From Flavobacteriales bacterium (GTDB lineage: Bacteria > Bacteroidota > Bacteroidia > Flavobacteriales_F > PHOS-HE28), in NCBI GenBank assembly GCA_023382455.1, contig JAHDVX010000012.1, positions 1-44,518 on the forward strand: a DNA stretch of 44,518 bases. Direction: 5' to 3'. This document shows positions 3,650 to 44,518 of this stretch, piece by piece. The notes beneath the pieces are model-generated. The model was not told the DNA's origin, did no database searches, and worked only from the letters and a program-made list of their open reading frames with translations. Numbering within the stretch: the stretch's first letter is position 1; each line of letters begins with the position of its first letter. The position numbers and the translations under genes are program-made.

Positions 3650-4078
3650 TTACTTCAGATACCAAAGAAGCAGGTCGTTAAAACTATCCCACTTAGGAGA
3701 ACTCAAACCTGCCGCAAGGTCGTCAATTTCGGCTACTCCTATGTCATATACGTGTTCATCAGAAATCGAGTAAAGAATAAATCCTTCGTTCTCTCCTGAT
3801 GTAAGACAGGCATATCCGCCAGGAACACCGAATACATCCCTGCCAAATTTTGTTGCAATAAAAATTTCAGAAGAAGGAGAAGAAATGTCCAACAATTCGC
3901 AGTTACGTCTACTTAGTACTCCTGCAAGCGTATAATCCAAGAAAAACTCACCGAACTGACTATCTGTTTTGATGCCAAGATTGCGCAAGTCAGACAGCAC
4001 TTTCGGAATCTCATCCGCTGAACGAACTACTCGTCCGGGATGCTTGCGAATGATGTCACGTATTTCGTTTGGGATCAT
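3650..4078 (-). CDS. SUKH (SMI1/KNR4)-like immunity protein
   Basis: This is a 142-residue acidic soluble protein. Its layout fits SUKH immunity proteins: a helical N-terminus (EIRDIIRKHPGRVVRSADEI), then a beta-rich core with FGVPGGYACLTSGENEGFIL, and a C-terminal segment (IGVAEIDDLAAGLSSPKW) ending in a helix with aromatic residues. SUKH proteins neutralise diverse nuclease and other toxins of contact-dependent and Rhs systems. Only 6 nt separate it from the stop of a short toxin-like reading frame upstream (4085-4417). The DNA is visibly more AT-rich than the flanking chromosome, suggesting acquisition by transfer. The family call comes from pattern and context without a profile search. 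Confidence 0.6.
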   Translation of the reverse strand: MIPNEIRDIIRKHPGRVVRSADEIPKVLSDLRNLGIKTDSQFGEFFLDYTLAGVLSRRNCELLDISSPSSEIFIATKFGRDVFGVPGGYACLTSGENEGFILYSISDEHVYDIGVAEIDDLAAGLSSPKWDSFNDLLLWYLK

Positions 4079-4856: not shown

Positions 4857-5387
4857 CTACGCCTCATCGCACTCAAATCCCAAATGCGGGTTGGCGCTGC
4901 TCCACATATAGGCTGTTTCATCGTTGACCAATCCTGCACGTAACGGGTTCTCGCGAAGGTAGCGTCTTCGCTGTTCAAACAATTCAGGCTTGTCCAGGAT
5001 GATCGGATGGTTGCTCTGCTGCCAGAACTGATGATTTACGTTCTGCGGGTTGGCCGCGCCATGTTCGCGAAACACGCGCATCATCCATTCCTTCCGGCTT
5101 TCCCGCGGATTAGCCACGATCAGCTTCACCAGTTCCTTGCTCGTATAGGTCTTGAAGTCGCGCATGATCTCCCCTAAGCTTCCATTCGCTGCGGCCGCGA
5201 TCAAGTGCAGGTGGTTCGGCATGATCACGAACTCATACAGCCGGAGACCCTTGTTCTTCCGGCAGTACGCCAGGTTCTGCAACAGGAATTCGGCGTATTC
5301 GCGGCGCGTGAACACATCCACCCAGCCCACCACGGCGAAGGTGATGAAGTGCGCATAGCCCTCAACGAACCTGTAGCGTTCGCTCAT
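4857..5387 (-). CDS. REP-associated tyrosine transposase (RAYT, IS200-like), intact copy
   Basis: This 176-residue Y1-family transposase starts at MSERYRFVEGYAH. The HUH motif is HLH within VIMPNHLHLIAAA, and the likely nucleophilic tyrosine is in the following helix (MRDFKTYTSKELVK). Further family hallmarks are VNHQFWQQSNHPI and RRYLRENPLRAGLV near the C-terminus. The length fits single-domain RAYTs. RAYTs are domesticated IS200/IS605 relatives that bind and cleave REP hairpins through a GTAG-like tetranucleotide, and matching REP-like hairpins surround this gene. It ends with a complete C-terminus (CDEA then TAG), so this is the intact copy. The open frame continues upstream of the ATG through the REP element, but that extension is not protein-like. 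Confidence 0.88.
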   Translation of the reverse strand: MSERYRFVEGYAHFITFAVVGWVDVFTRREYAEFLLQNLAYCRKNKGLRLYEFVIMPNHLHLIAAAANGSLGEIMRDFKTYTSKELVKLIVANPRESRKEWMMRVFREHGAANPQNVNHQFWQQSNHPIILDKPELFEQRRRYLRENPLRAGLVNDETAYMWSSANPHLGFECDEA

Positions 5388-5907
5388 GTGGGTGAAGGTA
5401 GATTGTAGAACGGCACGAGCGGAGGACGCTCGCGCCAGAGAGGGGGACCAATCCTGCACGTAACGGGTTCTCGCGAAGGTAGCGTCTTCGCTGTTCAAAC
5501 AATTCAGGCTTGTCCAGGATGATCGGATGGTTGCTCTGCTGCCAGAACTGATGATTTACGTTCTGCGGGTTGGCCGCGCCATGTTCGCGAAACACGCGCA
5601 TCATCCATTCCTTCCGGCTTTCCCGCGGATTAGCCACGATCAGCTTCACCAGTTCCTTGCTCGTATAGGTCTTGAAGTCGCGCATGATCTCCCCTAAGCT
5701 TCCATTCGCTGCGGCCGCGATCAAGTGCAGGTGGTTCGGCATGATCACGAACTCATACAGCCGGAGACCCTTGTTCTTCCGGCAGTACGCCAGGTTCTGC
5801 AACAGGAATTCGGCGTATTCGCGGCGCGTGAACACATCCACCCAGCCCACCACGGCGAAGGTGATGAAGTGCGCATAGCCCTCAACGAACCTGTAGCGTT
5901 CGCTCAT
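5362..5907 (-). CDS. REP-associated tyrosine transposase, second copy with altered C-terminus
   Basis: The ATG at 5907 is the duplicate of 5387, and the first ~153 residues are identical to the first copy, including HLH and the KTY tyrosine. After LRENPLRAGLV the duplication junction switches the frame into the REP/upstream region of copy one, so the native last ~23 residues (from NDETAYMWSS) are replaced by ~27 unrelated ones (PLSGASVLRSCRSTIYLHP...). The catalytic core is present, but the end that follows the family-conserved LRAGLV is lost, so function is doubtful. The open frame extends further upstream to 6297 through REP repeats without protein-like content. Confidence 0.75.
   Translation of the reverse strand: MSERYRFVEGYAHFITFAVVGWVDVFTRREYAEFLLQNLAYCRKNKGLRLYEFVIMPNHLHLIAAAANGSLGEIMRDFKTYTSKELVKLIVANPRESRKEWMMRVFREHGAANPQNVNHQFWQQSNHPIILDKPELFEQRRRYLRENPLRAGLVPLSGASVLRSCRSTIYLHPHERTLQVR
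5412..5440 (+). repeat. REP-like palindrome 2
   Basis: An imperfect hairpin with arms GGCACGAGCG and CGCTCGCGCC and loop GAGGA, preceded by GTAG at 5405-5408. It lies 25 nt upstream of the start codon of RAYT copy one. Confidence 0.75.
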
Positions 5908-5931
5908 GTGGGTGAAGGTAGATTGTAGAAC

Positions 5932-5960
5932 GGCACGAGCGGAGGACGCTCGCGCCAGAG
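5932..5960 (+). repeat. REP-like palindrome 3
   Basis: Identical to the element at 5412-5440 because it is part of the second 520-bp unit. It lies 25 nt upstream of the start codon of RAYT copy two and has the same GTAG 5' of the stem. Confidence 0.75.
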
Positions 5961-5990
5961 AGGGGCACGGGTGAAGGTAGATTGTAGGAC

Positions 5991-6018
5991 GGCACGAGCG
6001 TGGACGCTCGCGCCAGAG
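5991..6018 (+). repeat. REP-like palindrome 4 (variant loop)
   Basis: Same arms as the other copies, but the loop is TGGA rather than GAGGA. It is preceded by GTGAAGGTAGATTGTAG, the same leader as copies 2 and 3, so leader and palindrome move together. Confidence 0.7.
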
Positions 6019-6039
6019 ACATGCGTGAACACTTAGGAA

Positions 6040-6068
6040 GGCACGAGCGGAGGACGCTCGCGCCAGAG
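6040..6068 (+). repeat. REP-like palindrome 5
   Basis: A 29-nt copy identical in stem and loop to copies 2 and 3, but without the GTAG leader: it is preceded by ACACTTAGGAA. It is the outermost copy on this side. From 6069 to about 6277 I see no gene or clear signal. Confidence 0.7.
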
Positions 6069-6277
6069 ACAAGGATGGACAGGATGGCTTCGGGAGCGCA
6101 CATCCTGCAATCCTGTCAAGAACAGAGATCACCATCAACACCCGTGGATAACTTGAGTCTTCCCGCCAAAAGCCCATGGCCCTAGGGAGGTCCGCACCTT
6201 CAACAGCCCGCGTGGACAACTTCCCGCAGCTGGTGTTTTTCGCACCACCGCACGCCTTCTCTTTGTGCCAGTTCCTT

Positions 6278-6394
6278 GTCTGATGAGGCTGCCCCACCCG
6301 GGGCAGAGCGTAGGGGAATCATGTGAAATTCATGAGCTGTTGCGCAACTGTAAGCAGCATTAAGCTGTAAGCCAGATCGCCTTCTTCATCAGCC
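6278..6394 (+). promoter_or_regulatory. Adenosylcobalamin (B12) riboswitch
   Basis: The conserved cobalamin aptamer signature is readable in order: GGGGAATCATGTGAAATTC, then GAGCTG, then the B12 box GCGCAACTGTAAGC (6342-6355), then TAAGCCAGATCGCC (6368-6381). A closing P1 stem is present: CTGATGA at 6280-6286 pairs perfectly with TCATCAG at 6386-6392. The element lies in the leader of nrdB, about 110 nt before the start codon. In known cases, AdoCbl binding represses the downstream class I ribonucleotide reductase so that a B12-dependent class II enzyme takes over. Sequence order and the P1 pairing make the call strong even without a covariance-model score. Confidence 0.88.
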
Positions 6395-6408
6395 AGGACT
6401 TCGTTTTC

Positions 6409-6472
6409 GCATAAGGAACGAGGTTCGCCGATGCCGTACGCCGCCCGCGCACTTGCCGCCCCGCCCTTATGC
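6409..6472 (+). promoter_or_regulatory. Candidate riboswitch expression platform (long-range stem)
   Basis: GCATAAGG at 6409-6416 is perfectly complementary to CCTTATGC at 6465-6472, enclosing a GC-rich stretch. It sits between the aptamer and the nrdB start at 6504. No T-run follows, so control of translation is more likely than termination. Inferred from complementarity only. Confidence 0.4.
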
Positions 6473-6503
6473 CTGTGTTCAACCGTTCACAAGCATCAAT
6501 ACC

Positions 6504-7457
6504 ATGGGCATCTTCGACAAGCGCACCAACTATAAACCCTTCGAGTATCCCGGCATCCTGCAGTTCACCGAGGCGATGAACCGCTCCTTCTGGGTGCATT
6601 CCGAGATCGAGTTCACCGCCGACGTGCAGGACTTCAAGGCACACCTCACCGAGGTGGAACGCGAGGTGGTGAAACGCAGCCTGCTGGGCATCGCCCAAGT
6701 GGAGGTGGGCGTGAAGCTGTTCTGGGGCGATATCTACAAGCACTTCCCCAAGCCGGAGTTCAACGGCCTGGCCGCCACCTTCGCCGAGAGCGAGTTCCGC
6801 CACTCCGAGGCCTACTCCCGCCTGCTGGAGGTGCTGGGCCACGAGAAGGATTTCGCCAAGCTGCCCGAGGTGCCCGTGTTCCAAAAGAAGATCGCGCTGA
6901 TCGAGGACAGCCTTTATGCCGAACAGGACATCATCGGCAAGCTGCTCTTCTTCACCATCGTCATCGAGAACGCCTCGCTCTTCTCGCAGTTTGCCAACAT
7001 CCTCTCCTTCACCCGCTTCAAGGGCTACCTGAAGAACACCTCCAACATCATCGCGTGGACCTCCATCGATGAGCAGACCCACGCCAGCGCCGGCATCTAC
7101 CTGCTGAACCTGCTGAAGGAGGAGGGCCACCTGCCGCCCGCCATGCTGGAGCGCATGACCGATGAGGTGCGCCGCTACATCCGCTACGAGGAGGAATTGC
7201 TCGACTGGATCTACGAGGCCGGCGAACTGGACTTCTTCAGCAAGGAGGACATGCTCAACTTCATGAAGTACCGGGTGGATGATGCCCTGGTGCGCATCGG
7301 GGCCGCCAAGGCCTTTGGCATCACCGAGGCCCAGTATGCGCCCATGAAGTGGTTTGATGAGGACGTGTTCGCCAACGAACTGGACGACTTCTTCGCCAAG
7401 CGCCCCACGGCCTACACCAAGCACGACAAGAGCATCCAAGCCACCGACCTGTTCTGA
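6504..7457 (+). CDS. nrdB: Class I ribonucleotide reductase, beta (radical) subunit
   Basis: This 317-residue ferritin-like diiron protein makes the radical used by NrdA to reduce ribonucleotides for DNA synthesis. Counting from MGIFDKRTNY, the candidate metal ligands are E67 (in AQVEVGV), E97 and H100 (SEFRH), E155 (IENASLF), E190 and H193 (DEQTHA). The radical tyrosine is Y104 in HSEAYSRLL, so this is not the Phe-type class Ic variant. The short C-terminal tail (KSIQATDLF) is the expected NrdA-docking region. No ATP-cone precedes the fold. An upstream in-frame ATG at 6453 would add 17 residues of unlike composition inside the riboswitch leader, so 6504 is preferred. It is the first gene of nrdB-thioesterase-nrdA. 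Confidence 0.93.
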   Translation: MGIFDKRTNYKPFEYPGILQFTEAMNRSFWVHSEIEFTADVQDFKAHLTEVEREVVKRSLLGIAQVEVGVKLFWGDIYKHFPKPEFNGLAATFAESEFRHSEAYSRLLEVLGHEKDFAKLPEVPVFQKKIALIEDSLYAEQDIIGKLLFFTIVIENASLFSQFANILSFTRFKGYLKNTSNIIAWTSIDEQTHASAGIYLLNLLKEEGHLPPAMLERMTDEVRRYIRYEEELLDWIYEAGELDFFSKEDMLNFMKYRVDDALVRIGAAKAFGITEAQYAPMKWFDEDVFANELDDFFAKRPTAYTKHDKSIQATDLF

Positions 7458-7466
7458 GCGAGGCCG

Positions 7467-7859
7467 ATGGAAAGCGAACTGCACACGCGGATCGGGGCGT
7501 CGCGCACGTCCCTGTTCAAGGTGATCTTCCCGAACACCACCAACCACTATAATACCCTCTTCGGCGGCAAAGCGCTGGAGCTGATGGACGAGGTGGCCTT
7601 CATCTCCGCCACCCGGTTCAGCCGGAAAAAGGTGGTGACCATCTCCTCGGACAAGATCGACTTCAAGGAACCCATACCGGCGGACACCATCATTGAGCTG
7701 GTGGCCCAGGTAAGCAGCGTGGGCACCACCAGCCTGCAGGTGCGCGTGGAGATCTTTCAGGAGGAAATGTACCGGCCCGCCACGCGGCGCCGATCGATCA
7801 CCGGCCAATTCACCTTCGTTGCACTGGACGAAAACAACAAACCCACATCCGTACTATGA
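7467..7859 (+). CDS. Acyl-CoA thioesterase, hot-dog fold
   Basis: This 130-residue protein has the hexameric hot-dog thioesterase signature. HYNTLFGGKALELMDEVAF carries the catalytic Asn/Asp region, and VTISSDKIDFKEPIPADTI the conserved core strand. Members hydrolyse acyl-CoA to free acid and CoA in the cytoplasm; chain-length preference cannot be read from sequence. It begins 9 nt after nrdB, and its stop overlaps the nrdA start (ATGA), so the three genes are almost certainly co-transcribed and the last two translationally coupled. Its presence between the RNR subunits is unexpected and puts it under the B12 riboswitch. Confidence 0.85.
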   Translation: MESELHTRIGASRTSLFKVIFPNTTNHYNTLFGGKALELMDEVAFISATRFSRKKVVTISSDKIDFKEPIPADTIIELVAQVSSVGTTSLQVRVEIFQEEMYRPATRRRSITGQFTFVALDENNKPTSVL

Positions 7860-9505
7860 ACAAATTATGGTGGCTCAATGACGAAAGCGAGCAGATGCTC
7901 AACCGGGGCTATCTGCTGAAGGGGGAAACCGTGGAGGGCGCCATCCAGCGGGTGGCCACCGCGGCCAGCAAACGCCTGTACCGGCCCGAGCTGCGCCGGC
8001 CCTTTGCCGAGCTGATCGAGAACGGATGGATGAGCCTGAGCTCGCCGGTGTGGGCCAACATGGGCACCGAGCGCGGGCTGCCCATCTCGTGCTTCAACGT
8101 GCATGTGCCCGACCAGATCGAGGGCATCACCCACAAGCTGGGCGAGGTGATCATGCAGACCAAGCTCGGGGGTGGCACCTCCGGCTACTTCGGCGAGCTG
8201 CGCGGGCGCGGCACGGCCGTTACCGACAACGGCCAAAGCAGCGGCGCCGTGTCCTTCATGAAACTGTTCGACGGGGTGATGGACACCATCTCGCAGGGCG
8301 GCGTGCGGCGCGGCGCCTTCGCGGCCTACCTGGACATCGACCACCCGGACATCGGCGAGTTCCTGCAGATCAAGGACATCGGCAATCCCCTGCAAAACCT
8401 GTTCTACGGCGTGTGCGTGCCCGACTACTGGATGCAGGAGATGATCGAGGGCGACATGGAAAAGCGCGAGCTGTGGGCCAAGGTGCTGGAGTCACGCCAA
8501 CAGAAGGGGCTGCCCTACCTGTTCTTCACCGACAACGTGAACGGCAACAAGCCGCAGGTGTACAAGGACCGCAACATGCAGATCCACTCCAGCAACCTGT
8601 GCTCGGAGATCATGCTGCCCTCCAGCGCCGACGAGTCGTTCATCTGCTGCCTGTCGTCCATGAACCTGGAGCTGTACGACGAGTGGAAGGACACCGACGC
8701 CGTGCGGCTCGCCATCTTCTTTCTGGACGCGGTGCTGCAGGAGTTCATCGAGAAGACCGACGGCAACCACTACCTGCGCAACGCCAACAACTTCGCCCGG
8801 TGCCACCGCGCCGTGGGCCTGGGCGCCATGGGCTGGCACTCCTTCCTGCAGCGCAACATGATCCCCTTCGAGGGCCTGGAGGCCAAGCAGCACACCCGGG
8901 CCATCTTCGAGCATATCCGCGAACAGGCCGACCAGGCCACCCGCGAGCTGGCGGAGATCTATGGCGAGCCGGAGCTCCTGAAGGGCTATGGCTGCCGCAA
9001 CGCCACCGTGATGGCCATCGCGCCCACCACCTCTTCCTCGGCCATCCTGGGGCAGGCCTCGCCCGGCATTGAGCCCTACAGCAGCAACTACTTCAAGGCG
9101 GGCCTTTCCAAGGGCAACTTCATCCGCAAGAACAAGTACCTGAAGGCCCTGCTGGAGGAAAAGGGCCTGGACAACGAGGAGACCTGGCGCGGCATCATGC
9201 TGAACCAGGGCAGCGTGGCACATATCCACGAACTGTCGGAACACGAGCGGGCGGTCTTCAAGACCTTCAAGGAGATCAGCCAGCTGGAGATCATCCAGCA
9301 GGCCTCCATCCGGCAGCGCTTCGTCGACCAGTCGCAGAGCCTGAACCTGAACATCCCGTCCAACCTGCCGGTGAAGGAGGTGAACAAGCTGATCATCGAA
9401 GCTTGGCGGCTGGGGGTGAAGACGCTGTACTACCAACGGAGCCAAAGCGTATCCAAGGAAACGGCCGTGAAGGAGCTGGTGGGCTGCGTGAGCTGCGAGG
9501 CGTGA
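7856..9505 (+). CDS. nrdA: Class I ribonucleotide reductase, alpha (catalytic) subunit
   Basis: This is a 549-residue reductase. Key residues visible: C79 (ISCFNVH) and C264/C265 (ESFICCLSSMNL), of which one pairs with C79 as the substrate disulfide; the NxCxE motif N247-C249-E251 (NLCSEIMLP) with the thiyl cysteine; the radical-transfer tyrosines Y525-Y526 (TLYYQRSQS); and the C-terminal redox pair C544/C547 (CVSCEA). It is short for class Ia, and the N-terminus goes directly into the reductase fold with no ATP-cone, so overall activity control by dATP through a cone is absent. The start overlaps the thioesterase stop. Confidence 0.94.
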   Translation: MNKLWWLNDESEQMLNRGYLLKGETVEGAIQRVATAASKRLYRPELRRPFAELIENGWMSLSSPVWANMGTERGLPISCFNVHVPDQIEGITHKLGEVIMQTKLGGGTSGYFGELRGRGTAVTDNGQSSGAVSFMKLFDGVMDTISQGGVRRGAFAAYLDIDHPDIGEFLQIKDIGNPLQNLFYGVCVPDYWMQEMIEGDMEKRELWAKVLESRQQKGLPYLFFTDNVNGNKPQVYKDRNMQIHSSNLCSEIMLPSSADESFICCLSSMNLELYDEWKDTDAVRLAIFFLDAVLQEFIEKTDGNHYLRNANNFARCHRAVGLGAMGWHSFLQRNMIPFEGLEAKQHTRAIFEHIREQADQATRELAEIYGEPELLKGYGCRNATVMAIAPTTSSSAILGQASPGIEPYSSNYFKAGLSKGNFIRKNKYLKALLEEKGLDNEETWRGIMLNQGSVAHIHELSEHERAVFKTFKEISQLEIIQQASIRQRFVDQSQSLNLNIPSNLPVKEVNKLIIEAWRLGVKTLYYQRSQSVSKETAVKELVGCVSCEA

Positions 9506-40200: not shown

Positions 40201-43200
40201 TGTCGATGGCGCTGGGCACGTAGGTGGGCGTGAGCACCGTGTTGCTCGGGTAGAAGCTGCCCGTGCCGGAGGTGCTCCATTGCACTTGGGTGGCATCGCC
40301 GCTGAGGGTGCCCGCCAGTTGCACGTTGGCGTTGTTGGCGCAGAAGGTCTGGTCAACGCCCGCACTCACGGTACCTGCCGGAAGGATGGCGATGTGCAGG
40401 GTGTCGGAGGCCGCGGCGCAGCTGCCGGTGTTGGTGGCCGTGAGCACCAGGTCCACGCCTTGGGCGATGGAATCCTGGGCGCTGGCCTGGTAGATGTTGG
40501 CCAAGGCATTGGCCGGATTGGCGAAGCTGCCGCTGCCCAAAGTGCTCCACACACCGGTAGAGGAGGCACCACCCACCGAACCGTTGATCACCACATTCAG
40601 GCTGCCGAAGCAGACCGTCTGGTCGGAACCCGCATTTACCGTGGAGACCGGCACGATGGTCAGAACCATCTGGTCCGCGGCGTTGTCGCAGCTGTTCACG
40701 CTCCAGGTGAAGGTGAGCGTACCGAGTGCCGCATCGCCAGCAGCCACTTGGTACACGGCGTTCGCGTCATCGGCGTTGGGCACGAAGCTGCCCGCACCGG
40801 TGGTGGTCCAGTGGCCTTGCGTGGCGTTGCCCGCGATGGAGCCTGCCAATTGCACGGTGGCCGTGCTGGCGCAGATGCTCTGGTCGGGGCCGGCGTTGGC
40901 CACGGCGTTGGGCAGGATGGTCAGCGTCATCACATCGCTCACCGCGTTGCACAGGCCGTAGTTGGTGGCCGTCAGCGTGAGGTCCACGGTACCGTTGAGC
41001 GAATCCAGCGAGCTGGCCATGTAAGTGGCGTTCAGGTCGGTGGCGCTCGGGAAGAAAGTGCCGGTCCCGGAAGTGCTCCACACGCCGGTAGTGGCGCCGC
41101 CTTGCACCGTGCCGGTCATTGGCACTTGCAGATTGTTGGAGCAGGTGGTCAGGTCTGCACCCGCGTTCACCACAGGGGCAGGTGTTACGGTGATGGTCAT
41201 CTGGTCGGTCACGGCCAAGCAATTGCCATTGCCGGTGGTGGTGAGCGTGAGCGTCACTGAGCCGCTCTGCAGCTCGAAGGGCGTGAGCGTGTATTGCGCA
41301 TTGGCACTCTGGGCATTGGGCGCATAGCTGCCCAGGCCACCGCTCCATTGCACGCCGCCAGCCACGGTGCTGCCGCCGTTCAGCGTCACCACCGGGTTGT
41401 TGGCGCACACGTTCTGGTCCACGCCGGCATCCACGGTGGGCGCCGGCGTGAAGGTGATGTGCATGGTGTCCTTCACTGCAAGGCAGTTGCCGTTGCCGGT
41501 GGAGGTGAGGTAGAGGTTCATGCCGCCCGAGGCGATCTCCGCCGCGGTGGGCGTATACACCGGGCTGAGCACGTTGGCCGAGGGGCTGAAGCTGCCGCTA
41601 CCGCCGGTCCAGGTGCCGCCGTTGGCGTTCACTACATCACCGTTCAGTTGCACGGCGGAGTTGTTCGCGCAGATGCTTTGGTCCGCACCGGCATTCACCA
41701 CTGGTGCATCGGTGAAGTACACCGTCACCTGGTCCGTGACGGCATTGCAGTATGCGGTACCCGTGGAGGTCAGCGTGAAGGTGACCGATCCCGCCGCGAT
41801 CTCCGCCGCCGTAGGCGTGTATTGCACCGCCATGGAGGTGTTGTTCGGGAAGTAGTTGCCCGCGCCGCCGCTCCATTGGCCGCCCGGGGCATTGCCCGCG
41901 AAGCCGTTGAGCTGGAAGCCGGGGTTGTTGGCGCAGATGCTTTGGTCCGGTCCGGCGTTCACCACGGGCACGGGGTCCACGATGATCGTCAGGCTGTCGC
42001 GTACGGCCATACAGTTGCCGTTGCCCGTGCTGGTGAGCACCAGGGTGATCTGCCCGGCGGCCAATTCGAGCGCACTGGGGGTGTAGAGGGCATTCAAGGT
42101 TTGCGCGTTGGGCGTAAAGCTGCCCGCACCGCCGCTCCAGGTGCCGCCAGTGGCCACGCTCACACTGCCGGCCAGTTGCACGTCGGCATTGTTGGCGCAC
42201 ACGTGGGCGTCCGGCCCGGCGTTCACCACGGGTGCCGGGGTGAAGCTGAGCAGCACGGAATCGCGCGAGGCCAGGCAGCCGCCGTTGCCGGTGCTGGTGA
42301 GGTAGAGCCATGCGCTGCCTGCGGCCACTTCAGCGGCGCTGGCGGTGTACACGGCGTTCAGGGTGTTGGCATTGGGCGCGAAGCTGCCCGCACCGCCGCT
42401 CCAGGCGCCGCCATTGGCGTTGATCACCTGGCCGTTCAGTTGGGCGGCCACGTTGTTGGCGCACAAGGTCTGTGCGCTGCCCGCCTCCACGATGGGCGCA
42501 TCGGTGATGATGATGGTCACCTGGTCGCTCACCGCATTGCACAGGCCGTTGCCGGTGCTGGTAAGGGTGACCGTGGCGCTGCCCGCCAGTACTTCCGCTG
42601 CGCTGGGCGTGTAGATGGCGCTCAGACTGTTCACATTGGAGAAGGTGCCCGCACCGCTCCAGGTGCCGCCGGTGGCGTTCTGCACCGAACCGGCCAGTTG
42701 CACACTGGGGTTGTTGGCGCAGGACTGCAATGGAGGTCCGGCATCCACCACGGGTGCCGGGGTGATGGTCACCGTGATCTGGTCGCTTACCGCGTTGCAA
42801 AGGCCGTTGCCCACGGTGGTGAGCGTCAGCGTGGCACTGCCCGCGGCGATCTCCGCCGCCGAGGGCGTGTACACGGCGTTCAGCGTGCCGTTGTTCGGGC
42901 TGAAGCTGCCGCTGCCGCCGCTCCACAGGGCGCCGGTGGCCACGGTGATGGCGCCGTTCAGCTGCAGGGTGGCGTTGTTCGCGCAGATGCTGGCATCCGC
43001 ACCGGCATTGGCCGTGGGCGCGGGAGTGAAGGTGTAGGTCACCTGGTCGCTCACCGCGGTGCAGCCGTTGTTGCCCGTGGTGGTCAGGGTCAGCGTGGCG
43101 AAGCCTGCCGCGATCTCGCCCTGCGACGGGGTGTAAACCGCGTTCAGCGCGTTGGCGTTGGGCGAGAAGGTGCCACCGCCGCCGCTCCAGGCACCGCCAT

Positions 43201-44518
43201 TGGCCACGGTCACGCTGCCGTTCAGCTGGATGGCCGCATTGTTGGCGCAGTACGTGCCGTCGCTGCCTGCGTTGGCCGTGGGCGGCGCAGTGAAGGTGAT
43301 CTGTACGTTATCGGACACCGGCACGCAGTTGCCATTGCCGATGGTGGTGAGCGTGAGGGTGAGCGTGCCCGCCGCGATCTCCGCCGCCGTGGGCGTGTAC
43401 ACCGCGTTCAGGTCCGCGATGGAGGGCGAGAAGGTGCCCGCGCCGCCGCTCCACTGGCCGCCGCCCGCTCCGGTCACCGAAGCGCCGAGCTGCACCGTGG
43501 CGTTGTTGGAGCACACGGAGATGTCGTTGCCGGCATTGGCCACGGGCGAGGCGATGATCGTGATGGTCATCTGGTCGCTTACCGGGCTGCACAGGCCGTT
43601 CTGGGTGGAGGTCAGCGTCAGGGTGGCCGTGCCCAAGGCCACTTCAGCGGGGCTGGGGTGGTAGGTGGCGTTCAGCGCGTTGGCATTCGGCGTCCAGGTG
43701 CCGGTACCGCCGCTCCATACACCGCCGCCGGCGATGGTCACCGACCCGTTCAGCACCACCGTGGGGTCGTTGGCACAGACCGTGCGGTCCGCGCCCGCAT
43801 TCACCACGGGGCTTTGCGAGAAGTAGATAGTCACGGCATCATTCACCGCCAGGCAGCTGCCGTTGCCGGTGCTGGTGAGCGTGAGCGTCACGGAGCCGTT
43901 GGCCAGCTCGGTGGCGCTGGGGGTGTACTGCGCATTCAGCGCATTGATGCTGGGGCTGAAGCCGCCCGTGCCGCCGCTCCAGATGCCGCCCGCGGCGTTG
44001 GCCACGGATCCGGCCAATTGCACGGTGGCATTGTTGCTGCACACGGTCTGGTCCGTACCGGCGTTCACTACGGGCGCCGGGGCGATGTTGATCACCACTT
44101 GGTCGCTCACCGCCGTGCACAAGCCATTGCCCGTGCTGGTCAGCGTGAGCGTCACGGTGCCTGCGGCGACCTCGCCCAAGGTGGGCGTGTAGGTGGCGTT
44201 CAGGTTGTTCGCGCTCGGGTTGAAGCTGCCCGATCCGCCGCTCCACACGCCGCCGGTGGCGTTGGTCACCACACCGGCCAATTGGGCGGTGGGCTGATTG
44301 GCGCAGATGGTGAGGTTGGCCCCGGCATTCACTACCGGCGCGGGAGTGATGGTGATGGTGATCTGATCGGTAACGGGGTTGCTGTTGCCGTTGCCCACGG
44401 TGGTGAGCGTAAGGGTCACGCTGCCCGCCGCGATCTCCGCCGCCGAGGGGAAGTAGGTGGTGTTCAGCGAGGTGGCGCCGGGGGTGTAAGTGCCCGTGCC
44501 GCCGCTCCAGATGCCGCC
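37217..44518 (-). CDS. Giant T9SS-secreted repeat protein with gliding-motility C-terminal domain, partial
   Basis: More than 2430 residues, with the start beyond the right edge. The N-terminal part is a partial repeat plus 24 complete tandem ~88-residue repeats (consensus: VNAGxDQxxCANN, xxxLxGxV, GGxWSGGxGxFxP, LNAxYTPSAAEIAAGS, TLTSTGNGxCxAVSDQ). Two PKD-like domains follow (ending near 37740 and 37500; WNWDFGNG and WQYDFGDG). The end is the type B T9SS sorting (gliding motility-associated) domain: LPDAFSPNGDGVNDVF, LRIYNGWGELIFES, GTYVYTVVATSTDGQ. It is a surface or secreted adhesin of the SprB style. It is followed by porP/sprF. Nothing suggests enzyme activity. Confidence 0.9.
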   Translation of the reverse strand, partial: GGIWSGGTGTYTPGATSLNTTYFPSAAEIAAGSVTLTLTTVGNGNSNPVTDQITITITPAPVVNAGANLTICANQPTAQLAGVVTNATGGVWSGGSGSFNPSANNLNATYTPTLGEVAAGTVTLTLTSTGNGLCTAVSDQVVINIAPAPVVNAGTDQTVCSNNATVQLAGSVANAAGGIWSGGTGGFSPSINALNAQYTPSATELANGSVTLTLTSTGNGSCLAVNDAVTIYFSQSPVVNAGADRTVCANDPTVVLNGSVTIAGGGVWSGGTGTWTPNANALNATYHPSPAEVALGTATLTLTSTQNGLCSPVSDQMTITIIASPVANAGNDISVCSNNATVQLGASVTGAGGGQWSGGAGTFSPSIADLNAVYTPTAAEIAAGTLTLTLTTIGNGNCVPVSDNVQITFTAPPTANAGSDGTYCANNAAIQLNGSVTVANGGAWSGGGGTFSPNANALNAVYTPSQGEIAAGFATLTLTTTGNNGCTAVSDQVTYTFTPAPTANAGADASICANNATLQLNGAITVATGALWSGGSGSFSPNNGTLNAVYTPSAAEIAAGSATLTLTTVGNGLCNAVSDQITVTITPAPVVDAGPPLQSCANNPSVQLAGSVQNATGGTWSGAGTFSNVNSLSAIYTPSAAEVLAGSATVTLTSTGNGLCNAVSDQVTIIITDAPIVEAGSAQTLCANNVAAQLNGQVINANGGAWSGGAGSFAPNANTLNAVYTASAAEVAAGSAWLYLTSTGNGGCLASRDSVLLSFTPAPVVNAGPDAHVCANNADVQLAGSVSVATGGTWSGGAGSFTPNAQTLNALYTPSALELAAGQITLVLTSTGNGNCMAVRDSLTIIVDPVPVVNAGPDQSICANNPGFQLNGFAGNAPGGQWSGGAGNYFPNNTSMAVQYTPTAAEIAAGSVTFTLTSTGTAYCNAVTDQVTVYFTDAPVVNAGADQSICANNSAVQLNGDVVNANGGTWTGGSGSFSPSANVLSPVYTPTAAEIASGGMNLYLTSTGNGNCLAVKDTMHITFTPAPTVDAGVDQNVCANNPVVTLNGGSTVAGGVQWSGGLGSYAPNAQSANAQYTLTPFELQSGSVTLTLTTTGNGNCLAVTDQMTITVTPAPVVNAGADLTTCSNNLQVPMTGTVQGGATTGVWSTSGTGTFFPSATDLNATYMASSLDSLNGTVDLTLTATNYGLCNAVSDVMTLTILPNAVANAGPDQSICASTATVQLAGSIAGNATQGHWTTTGAGSFVPNADDANAVYQVAAGDAALGTLTFTWSVNSCDNAADQMVLTIVPVSTVNAGSDQTVCFGSLNVVINGSVGGASSTGVWSTLGSGSFANPANALANIYQASAQDSIAQGVDLVLTATNTGSCAAASDTLHIAILPAGTVSAGVDQTFCANNANVQLAGTLSGDATQVQWSTSGTGSFYPSNTVLTPTYVPSAIDTAIGSLTLTLSAVNTCNNASDAMTLTLTPAPYVNAGPDQTYCDQVSVFPLSGTISGITNVGQWTTTGTGTIANAGSMNTTYTASAADIAAGQITFTLTSLNNGNCGPVSDNMTIFLTDGIIVSAGPDQSVCVASDHANLQGTITNGSPSGTWTTTGTGTFQPSADVLNAQYYFSPADVANGAVVLTFTATNTGTCPSGSDQMTLTFGNTSYAYAGADQSLCANAPIAQLAGNFSGGATGVQWTTSGSGTFSNTTNPAATYTLSNADIAAGAVTLTMTTITSGSCAAASDQVLLSVNAIPTITAGNDVIACTAGPVQLAANVTGATGGSWTSSGTGTFFDANALATFYYPSAADSLAGSVTLTVTSTGMAPCSAVSDVLTISFGGGYTAQAGNDVITCSTSPNVALSGVVNGTTTGVWTTSGTGSFSPSATDLNATYIPGAADFVIGNINLVLSTTNNQGCPAGRDTLVVSYHVPPTVNAGADHLLCLGVQPVQLNATALNDSLVHWVTTGTGSFSPDANSLNAVYTPSANDSIQGGVYLILTAYGSGTCGNASDSLFIGVGPTRIANAGSDMDVCADGSPIQLGGTITGVSGGTWTTNGSGSFVPDANALNATYVPSAPDLLFGQLSFVLSTTGNMGCPAGTDTLLVNLHQPSTANAGLDISTCDASAPVQLNGSFTGAPGVQWTTSGSGSFSPGNTAPNAIYQPSAADSAMQQVFLVLTTTGDSYCAAAVDSALLSFTNPLNPAFTFSNTCVGSQTAFVDASTTTGLPIIGWNWDFGNGATGAGQQTGTTYADTGLYTVSLTVYAQNGCSATTSQTVQVMASPVAGFNYSGELFTEEAIAFTDSSQGGNNWQYDFGDGQGSLDRNPVHTFLEAGQYVVVQTVTNAAGCSTSDSLLIAIQENKIVPPKLPDAFSPNGDGVNDVFYVRGGPFKELHLRIYNGWGELIFESTDPLFGWDGTYKGQPEINGTYVYTVVATSTDGQQHDRAGKLTLIR
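37985..44518 (-). repeat. 264-bp tandem repeat array in the giant gene
   Basis: There are 24 complete repeats of about 264 nt plus a partial one at the edge. Repeats 1-12 (N-terminal side) are the WSGG type; repeats 13-24 carry WTTSGTG or WSTSGTG instead. Nearly every unit has two cysteines ~52 residues apart (CANN and GxCxAVSD). High DNA similarity makes the array a candidate for copy-number change by recombination. Confidence 0.85.

Follow-up and report, generated by a model that had tools for sequence, protein, structure and literature searches.

A predicted OFF switch for vitamin B12 in the leader of a class Id-like ribonucleotide reductase operon of a Flavobacteriales bacterium

The sequence analysed here (the window) comprises positions 1 to 44,518 of contig JAHDVX010000012.1 of a Flavobacteriales bacterium (assembly GCA_023382455.1), 44,518 bases in which a ribonucleotide reductase (RNR) operon, nrdB-thioesterase-nrdA, is preceded by a cobalamin riboswitch. 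This element probably senses vitamin B12 and switches off the reductase, which is B12-independent and class Id-like. Computation identified the aptamer, the operon, a gene for the B12-dependent reductase NrdJ elsewhere in the genome, a conserved helix between loop L13 of the leader and a tract just upstream of nrdB, and a co-occurrence of such switches with class II RNR. A first-pass annotation made from the sequence had proposed a B12 riboswitch in control of a class I RNR operon, and that interpretation is supported overall.

Aptamer and operon

The sole match at gathering threshold that Rfam cmscan returned for the window is the cobalamin riboswitch family RF00174 (6269-6402, forward strand, 35.6 bits against a gathering cut-off of 31.5, E 1.5e-5), which agrees with the cobalamin aptamer that the first-pass annotation had placed in the nrdB leader; nrdB starts 101 nucleotides further 3′. 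The P1 stem that had been read from the letters is also present, its arms CTGATGA (6280-6286) and TCATCAG (6386-6392) being partners in the Rfam alignment, where they form part of the model's outer stem. The aptamer is a short form from which the P8-P12 arm is missing, so that about 59 of the 189 RF00174 model positions are skipped in the window's alignment. When 14 leaders were aligned, 94.4% of cells in the drawn structure were found to pair, and 15 of 30 pairs had changed on both sides, a count for which the shuffled mean was 6.9 and which was reached in 0 of 500 shuffles. The P13 hairpin (6396-6426), with its stem at 6396-6405 and 6417-6426 and its loop L13 at 6406-6416 (UUCGCAUAAGG), is paired in 97.9% of cells on the same 14 leaders, with both-side changes in three of ten pairs. 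Loop L5 (UUGCG, 6340-6344) is complementary by eye to L13 over four pairs (UGCG 6341-6344 with CGCA 6408-6411), and the two loops may kiss at these positions.

The operon consists of three genes on the forward strand: nrdB (6504-7457) for a class Id-like radical-generating subunit of 317 amino acids (PF00268, 196 bits), a 4HBT-type acyl-CoA thioesterase gene (7467-7859; PF03061, 60 bits), and nrdA (7856-9505) for a class Id-like catalytic subunit of 549 amino acids (TIGR02510, 700 bits with a cut-off of 602; it also passes PRK09102). The class I RNR operon described by the first-pass annotation therefore lies behind the switch, with the addition of the thioesterase gene, of which it made no mention. 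Among the 26 switch-bearing named loci described below, nrdA is 3′ of nrdB in 25, and according to coordinates a thioesterase gene sits between the two in eight. The solved structures closest to the window's NrdB are 6cwo (409 bits), 8dq4 (408 bits) and 8dq5 (407 bits), and those closest to its NrdA are 6dqw (1023 bits) and 6dqx (629 bits); 6cwo and 6dqw are taken here to be the class Id enzyme of Flavobacterium johnsoniae. Judged by these nearest solved relatives, the enzyme is class Id-like (NrdAi/NrdBi), and a Pfam search at E 0.001 revealed no ATP-cone in either subunit.

B12-dependent partner and B12 supply

The genome that contains the window is assembled in 51 contigs and is 99.95% complete. 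The first-pass annotation had predicted a nrdJ gene outside the window, and a genome search found one: PF02867 matches two genes, namely nrdA of the window and the gene of an 896-residue protein on contig C2, and the latter passes TIGR02504 for adenosylcobalamin-dependent RNR (477.8 bits, cut-off 399.95) and is NrdJ. PF00268 identifies a single small subunit in the genome. On the 3′ side of nrdJ (locus L009, 4775-5311, reverse strand) is an open reading frame (ORF) of 178 amino acids whose product contains a stretch 92% identical to the final 36 residues of NrdJ, the cysteine-rich tail of that enzyme; it was matched by no Pfam family.

CbiC (PF02570), a marker of corrin-ring synthesis, had no match in this genome, whereas the same search was positive in seven of 14 genomes as a control. 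The organism therefore probably imports its B12, judged by this one family, in which case the switch would read an outside supply. Two further cobalamin riboswitches are present in the genome (123.6 and 112.2 bits). On contig C7, one precedes genes for a secreted protein, a TonB receptor and a DUF5074 protein, which look like B12 uptake genes; a cobalamin switch also precedes a TonB transporter gene in Flavobacterium psychrophilum (PMC9723704). On contig C35 (locus L010, 10800-12480), the 123.6-bit switch stands before a short ORF that resembles by eye the start of the secreted protein of contig C7, followed on its 3′ side by an RHS-like frame, an arrangement that could be either a truncated duplicate or an assembly joint.

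Recurrence of the switch before nrdB

A scan of named genomes for relatives of NrdB gave 195 loci, and in 26 of the best 80 a switch lies 5′ of nrdB. Eleven of the 26 reach the Rfam gathering score (L013, L015-L020, L022-L025), with L015 and L016 matching best to RF01689 (AdoCbl-II), and two (L014 and L078) fall below it and were identified by eye through the core that they have in common with the others. A covariance model, R1, was built from the window and these 13 loci, so that its matches on the training leaders are by construction; it added 13 loci at E ≤1.3e-5 (L034, L039, L052, L056, L059, L068, L073, L081, L084, L085, L087, L089, L092). The class Id nrdB genes of L056, L068 and L087 lie behind longer cobalamin aptamers of 207-220 nucleotides, and in L056 and L068 both L5 and L13 are different, as if the aptamer had been exchanged.

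When 395 class-level genomes were searched with R1, 174 had a match, most of them probably to other cobalamin switches. Inspection of the 30 best loci revealed, besides the window and genome G028, five more class Id nrdB loci with the switch (L144-L148), one switch before a distant nrdB (L150), and, by eye, one before an epimerase-like gene and a metE-like frame (L149). In L150 (1501-1648, reverse strand), from the Bacteroidia genome G399, the switch is directly before a nrdB whose product is 23% identical to that of the window and presumably belongs to class Ia; genome G399 also has a class II RNR. The genus of the window possesses distant-type nrdB genes as well (about 24-30% identical, and presumably also class Ia), and a switch on these was considered and rejected: R1 found none in all seven fetched loci, and Rfam had no match in the four of them that it was run on (L125, L126, L128 and L131).

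Co-occurrence with class II ribonucleotide reductase

NrdJ was searched for in the genomes of all 80 named loci and of L144-L150 (55 + 32 genomes). A class II RNR is present in each of the 31 genomes that carry the switch on a class Id nrdB (26 named loci and L144-L148, the window's genome being extra) and in three of 54 genomes with a switchless class Id nrdB (L021, L086 and L082), where absence of the switch was determined by R1 for all 54 and also by Rfam for 15. L149 and L150 were left out of these counts. The enzyme is of the window's type in 26 of the 31 and of a longer type of 1115-1123 residues in five (L018, L022, L023, L056 and L068); both TIGR02504 and PRK06556 are passed by these five longer ORFs and by the ORFs matched in L082 and L150. 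Two switchless genomes were ambiguous and were counted as lacking class II, one with an ORF of 575 amino acids (L058, 123 bits) and one with an ORF of 292 amino acids that matches the C-terminal part of NrdJ (L027, 134 bits). In L021, upstream of position 4001, a NrdJ-like frame ends by eye directly before the class Id nrdB with no riboswitch between them, and the two genes are possibly co-transcribed.

The counts suggest a rule, that a genome in which a nrdB of this type carries the switch also has a class II enzyme. Because 35 of the 54 switchless genomes belong to one clade (Chryseobacterium and kin), the raw counts overstate the evidence. They were not accepted as independent observations, the tree-corrected test given below being underpowered.

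Ligand

Adenosylcobalamin (AdoCbl), the cofactor of NrdJ, is an assumption as the ligand of this aptamer, which does not have the P8-P12 arm found in class I switches. By the published class criteria (PMC11260477), class I cobalamin riboswitches have the P8-P12 extension, and class IIb switches have GGAA in J3/4 and UCU in J6/3, apart from an exceptional IIb member without UCU; the window has neither the extension nor the UCU, its J3/4 containing GGAA and its J6/3 being AUCG by eye. It is conceivable, though somewhat unlikely, that the aptamer instead binds methyl- or hydroxocobalamin, the forms favoured by class IIa switches (PMC11260477), and reads total or light-exposed B12 rather than the NrdJ cofactor. 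The absent arm and the AUCG of J6/3 are in keeping with such a ligand, but class IIb switches, which are short too, bind AdoCbl, and both the GGAA of J3/4 and the best matches of L015 and L016 to the AdoCbl-II model point to AdoCbl.

Proposed switching device

Between P13 and nrdB, the tract CCUUAUGC (6465-6472) is the exact complement of GCAUAAGG (6409-6416) in L13, and is proposed to be the anti-sequestor of a B12-free ON state. The strand AUGCCUGUG (6469-6477), which overlaps the tract by four bases, is proposed to be the sequestor of a B12-bound OFF state: it can pair in nine contiguous positions, including G-U, with CAUGGGCAU (6503-6511), which contains the nrdB AUG. The L13-tract helix and the start-codon helix are mutually exclusive, and the former also competes with the L5-L13 kissing loop.

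The L13-tract helix is paired in 95.5% of cells in the 14 leaders (35.7-70.5% when shifted by one to three columns), with six cells changed on both sides compared with a shuffled mean of 1.4, and its duplex energy beats that of linker shuffles (p ≤0.05) in 25 of 32 leaders (window p 0.04). Since the nine-pair register of the window's group differs from the bulged register of an AT-rich group, the start-codon helix was tested leader by leader, using a stretch of 14 nucleotides chosen after the pairing had been seen by eye; it beats shuffles in 16 of the 26 leaders included (window p 0.014; L078, L087, L056, L068, L146 and L148 were left out). The leaders are related, so the duplex tests are not independent of one another. 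The RNA from 6463 to 6520 folds with a z score of -2.67 into a slightly different closing hairpin that uses the same tract. No terminator-like site was found in 6100-7900.

Just 5′ of the nrdB AUG (CAAGCAUCAAUACC), no Shine-Dalgarno-like run was seen; many Bacteroidota genes lack one. A Shine-Dalgarno role for an AAGGA with a small ORF at 6431 was considered and rejected, as this ORF is out of frame with nrdB; its codons are shared only among the three closest leaders.

The helix tests and the lack of a terminator-like site in the segment searched lead to the model of a translational OFF switch. With cobalamin bound, L5 would kiss and hold L13, so that the strand at 6469-6477 could cover the nrdB start codon by pairing and lower the translation of nrdB, and perhaps that of the genes behind it. 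With no cobalamin, L13 would pair with 6465-6472 and the start codon would open, allowing the class I enzyme to take over from an idle NrdJ.

One alternative mechanism, that the switch ends transcription in the leader by intrinsic or Rho-dependent termination instead of hiding the start codon, is unlikely. It has precedents in the transcriptional control of Streptomyces nrdABS (PMC4991794), in nrdAB of Propionibacterium acnes, whose transcription apparently ends ahead of the first gene (PMC3848588), and in metE of Priestia megaterium, where the same exchange of L13/P13 partners drives a terminator (PMC10653944), and several AT-rich relatives of the window have by eye a leader hairpin followed by a T-rich tract. 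Nevertheless, the segment searched for terminators was empty in the window, and the strand overlapping the tract outperforms shuffles over the start region in the majority of tested leaders already given.

The L13-tract device was also considered as a special property of nrd leaders, and this was rejected: under a common definition it occurs in 16 of 32 nrd leaders and, among 27 other cobalamin switches from the genome of the window and from relatives, in 10 (p 0.16), a comparison from which three of 30 matches were left out and in which several R1 placements of P13 look wrong. The device therefore probably belongs to the cobalamin leaders of these bacteria in general and is no invention of nrd.

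Several results weigh against a B12 switch of this design. The Rfam score of the window is close to the cut-off, only two pairs of the L13-tract helix have changed on both sides (not above shuffles), and the window's own start codon does not open in pseudoknot-free equilibrium folding. RNAfold comparisons of the leader with and without P13 showed little effect, probably because loop-tract pairing is a pseudoknot and beyond the program, and were replaced as a switching test by duplex and masking tests; opening exceeds that of shuffles in 16 of 32 leaders, and three of 32 close. When the tract is masked, the start region opens by a mean of 0.14 versus 0.07 in shuffles, but the effect is significant in only three of 32 single leaders (window p 0.21). 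On a NrdB tree of 86 rows, where the switch needs six changes, the tree-corrected association with class II RNR amounts to 3.6 concordant, 0 discordant and 1.4 undiffering independent pairs (median p 0.125), a test that is underpowered with only five independent pairs on supported branches.

The modest score is not a chance match, because relatives share the element before nrdB with scores of up to 62.1 bits and its structure covaries. Decay of the element into a relic that has lost B12 sensing is very improbable: a score only 4 bits over the cut-off, far under those of the genome's other two switches, is what a relic might have, but the deficit comes mainly from the missing arm, the short-form model R1 gives the window 136.9 bits (with the window in its training set), and compensating changes preserve the helices. 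Activation of nrdB by B12 through the leader, for which one activating corrinoid switch is known (A. halodurans cobT, PMC10653944), is scarcely credible given that the cases studied show repression of B12-independent isozymes (PMC4991794; metE, PMC6538847) and that the predicted helices would make the bound state the closed one.

Possible consequences of the proposed OFF switch

More tentatively, and with rather less than even confidence, the B12 supply of many Bacteroidota may choose between two radical chemistries, that of AdoCbl in NrdJ and that of the dimanganese class Id enzyme, through a short aptamer whose L13 alternates between L5 and a tract on a strand that would otherwise mask the start codon. 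Such a switch would act at the initiation site and suit messages that have no Shine-Dalgarno sequence; since this RNR subclass is mostly without a dATP activity switch, sensing of the vitamin by the mRNA would rank among the main controls of the class Id enzyme. Manganese is the metal of class Id reductases (PMC6754362), and if the proposal is true, such bacteria growing without B12 would lean on it. The OFF-switch model also provides base-level predictions of how a cobalamin switch could work where translation starts with no Shine-Dalgarno run.

Other features of the window

Two ORFs of IS200-like Y1 transposases (PF01797) are in tandem at 4860-5919 (reverse strand) and 5406-6081, and hold a stretch of 300 nucleotides that is 100% identical at a spacing of 520 nucleotides. 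Several REP-like repeats of 30-36 nucleotides end about 190 nucleotides 5′ of the riboswitch. At 42803-43464 there is a tandem array of 2.5 copies of a 264-nucleotide unit with 70% matches.

Comparison with known systems

Isozymes of B12-dependent enzymes are one function of cobalamin regulons according to a survey (PMC3766115) in the main text of which "nrd" does not occur. Literature searches, whose coverage excluded most subscription papers, returned no report of a cobalamin switch on a class Id or a Bacteroidota nrd gene. By nearest solved structures, the window shares the NrdAi/NrdBi subclass with F. johnsoniae and Leeuwenhoekiella blandensis (PMC6754362, PMC5794259), the latter represented by structure 5olk (PMC6754362). 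Like the window's genome, that of L. blandensis encodes a class II RNR as well. The NrdB of L. blandensis has an ATP-cone, whereas none was found in the NrdB of the window, and F. johnsoniae NrdB likewise has no added domain (PMC6754362). The word "riboswitch" is absent from the main text of PMC6754362.

The precedent that the first-pass annotation had invoked, a class I RNR switched by B12, is real. In Streptomyces, a B12 riboswitch precedes nrdABS beside nrdJ (PMC4991794, citing Borovok 2006), which resembles the window in that a cobalamin switch leads a class I RNR operon and the genome encodes an AdoCbl-dependent NrdJ. That enzyme is of class Ia, from an actinobacterium and under transcriptional control, while the window has a class Id-like enzyme of Bacteroidota, a short aptamer and proposed control at the start codon. 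In P. acnes, cobalamin riboswitches on nrdAB and nrdDG, beside a cobalamin-dependent nrdJ, likewise put B12-independent RNR genes behind cobalamin switches (PMC3848588), but the transcript map points to early termination and the RNR types are others.

For the device itself, the nearest comparison is metE of P. megaterium, in a riboswitch class where binding of the ligand lets L5 kiss L13 and stabilises P13 (PMC10653944), as the model of the window supposes. In the ligand-free state of P. megaterium metE, the partner of the P13 3′ side is the 5′ strand of the hairpin that follows, a terminator (PMC10653944); the corresponding hairpin of the window would cover the nrdB initiation site, and its competing pairing is mostly in the L13 loop. 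The regulatory logic is already known, and the variant lies in the class Id-like Bacteroidota target, the short aptamer and the start-codon device; the B12 control of DNA-precursor supply that was shown or proposed in actinobacteria would thereby extend to the class Id-like reductases of Bacteroidota.

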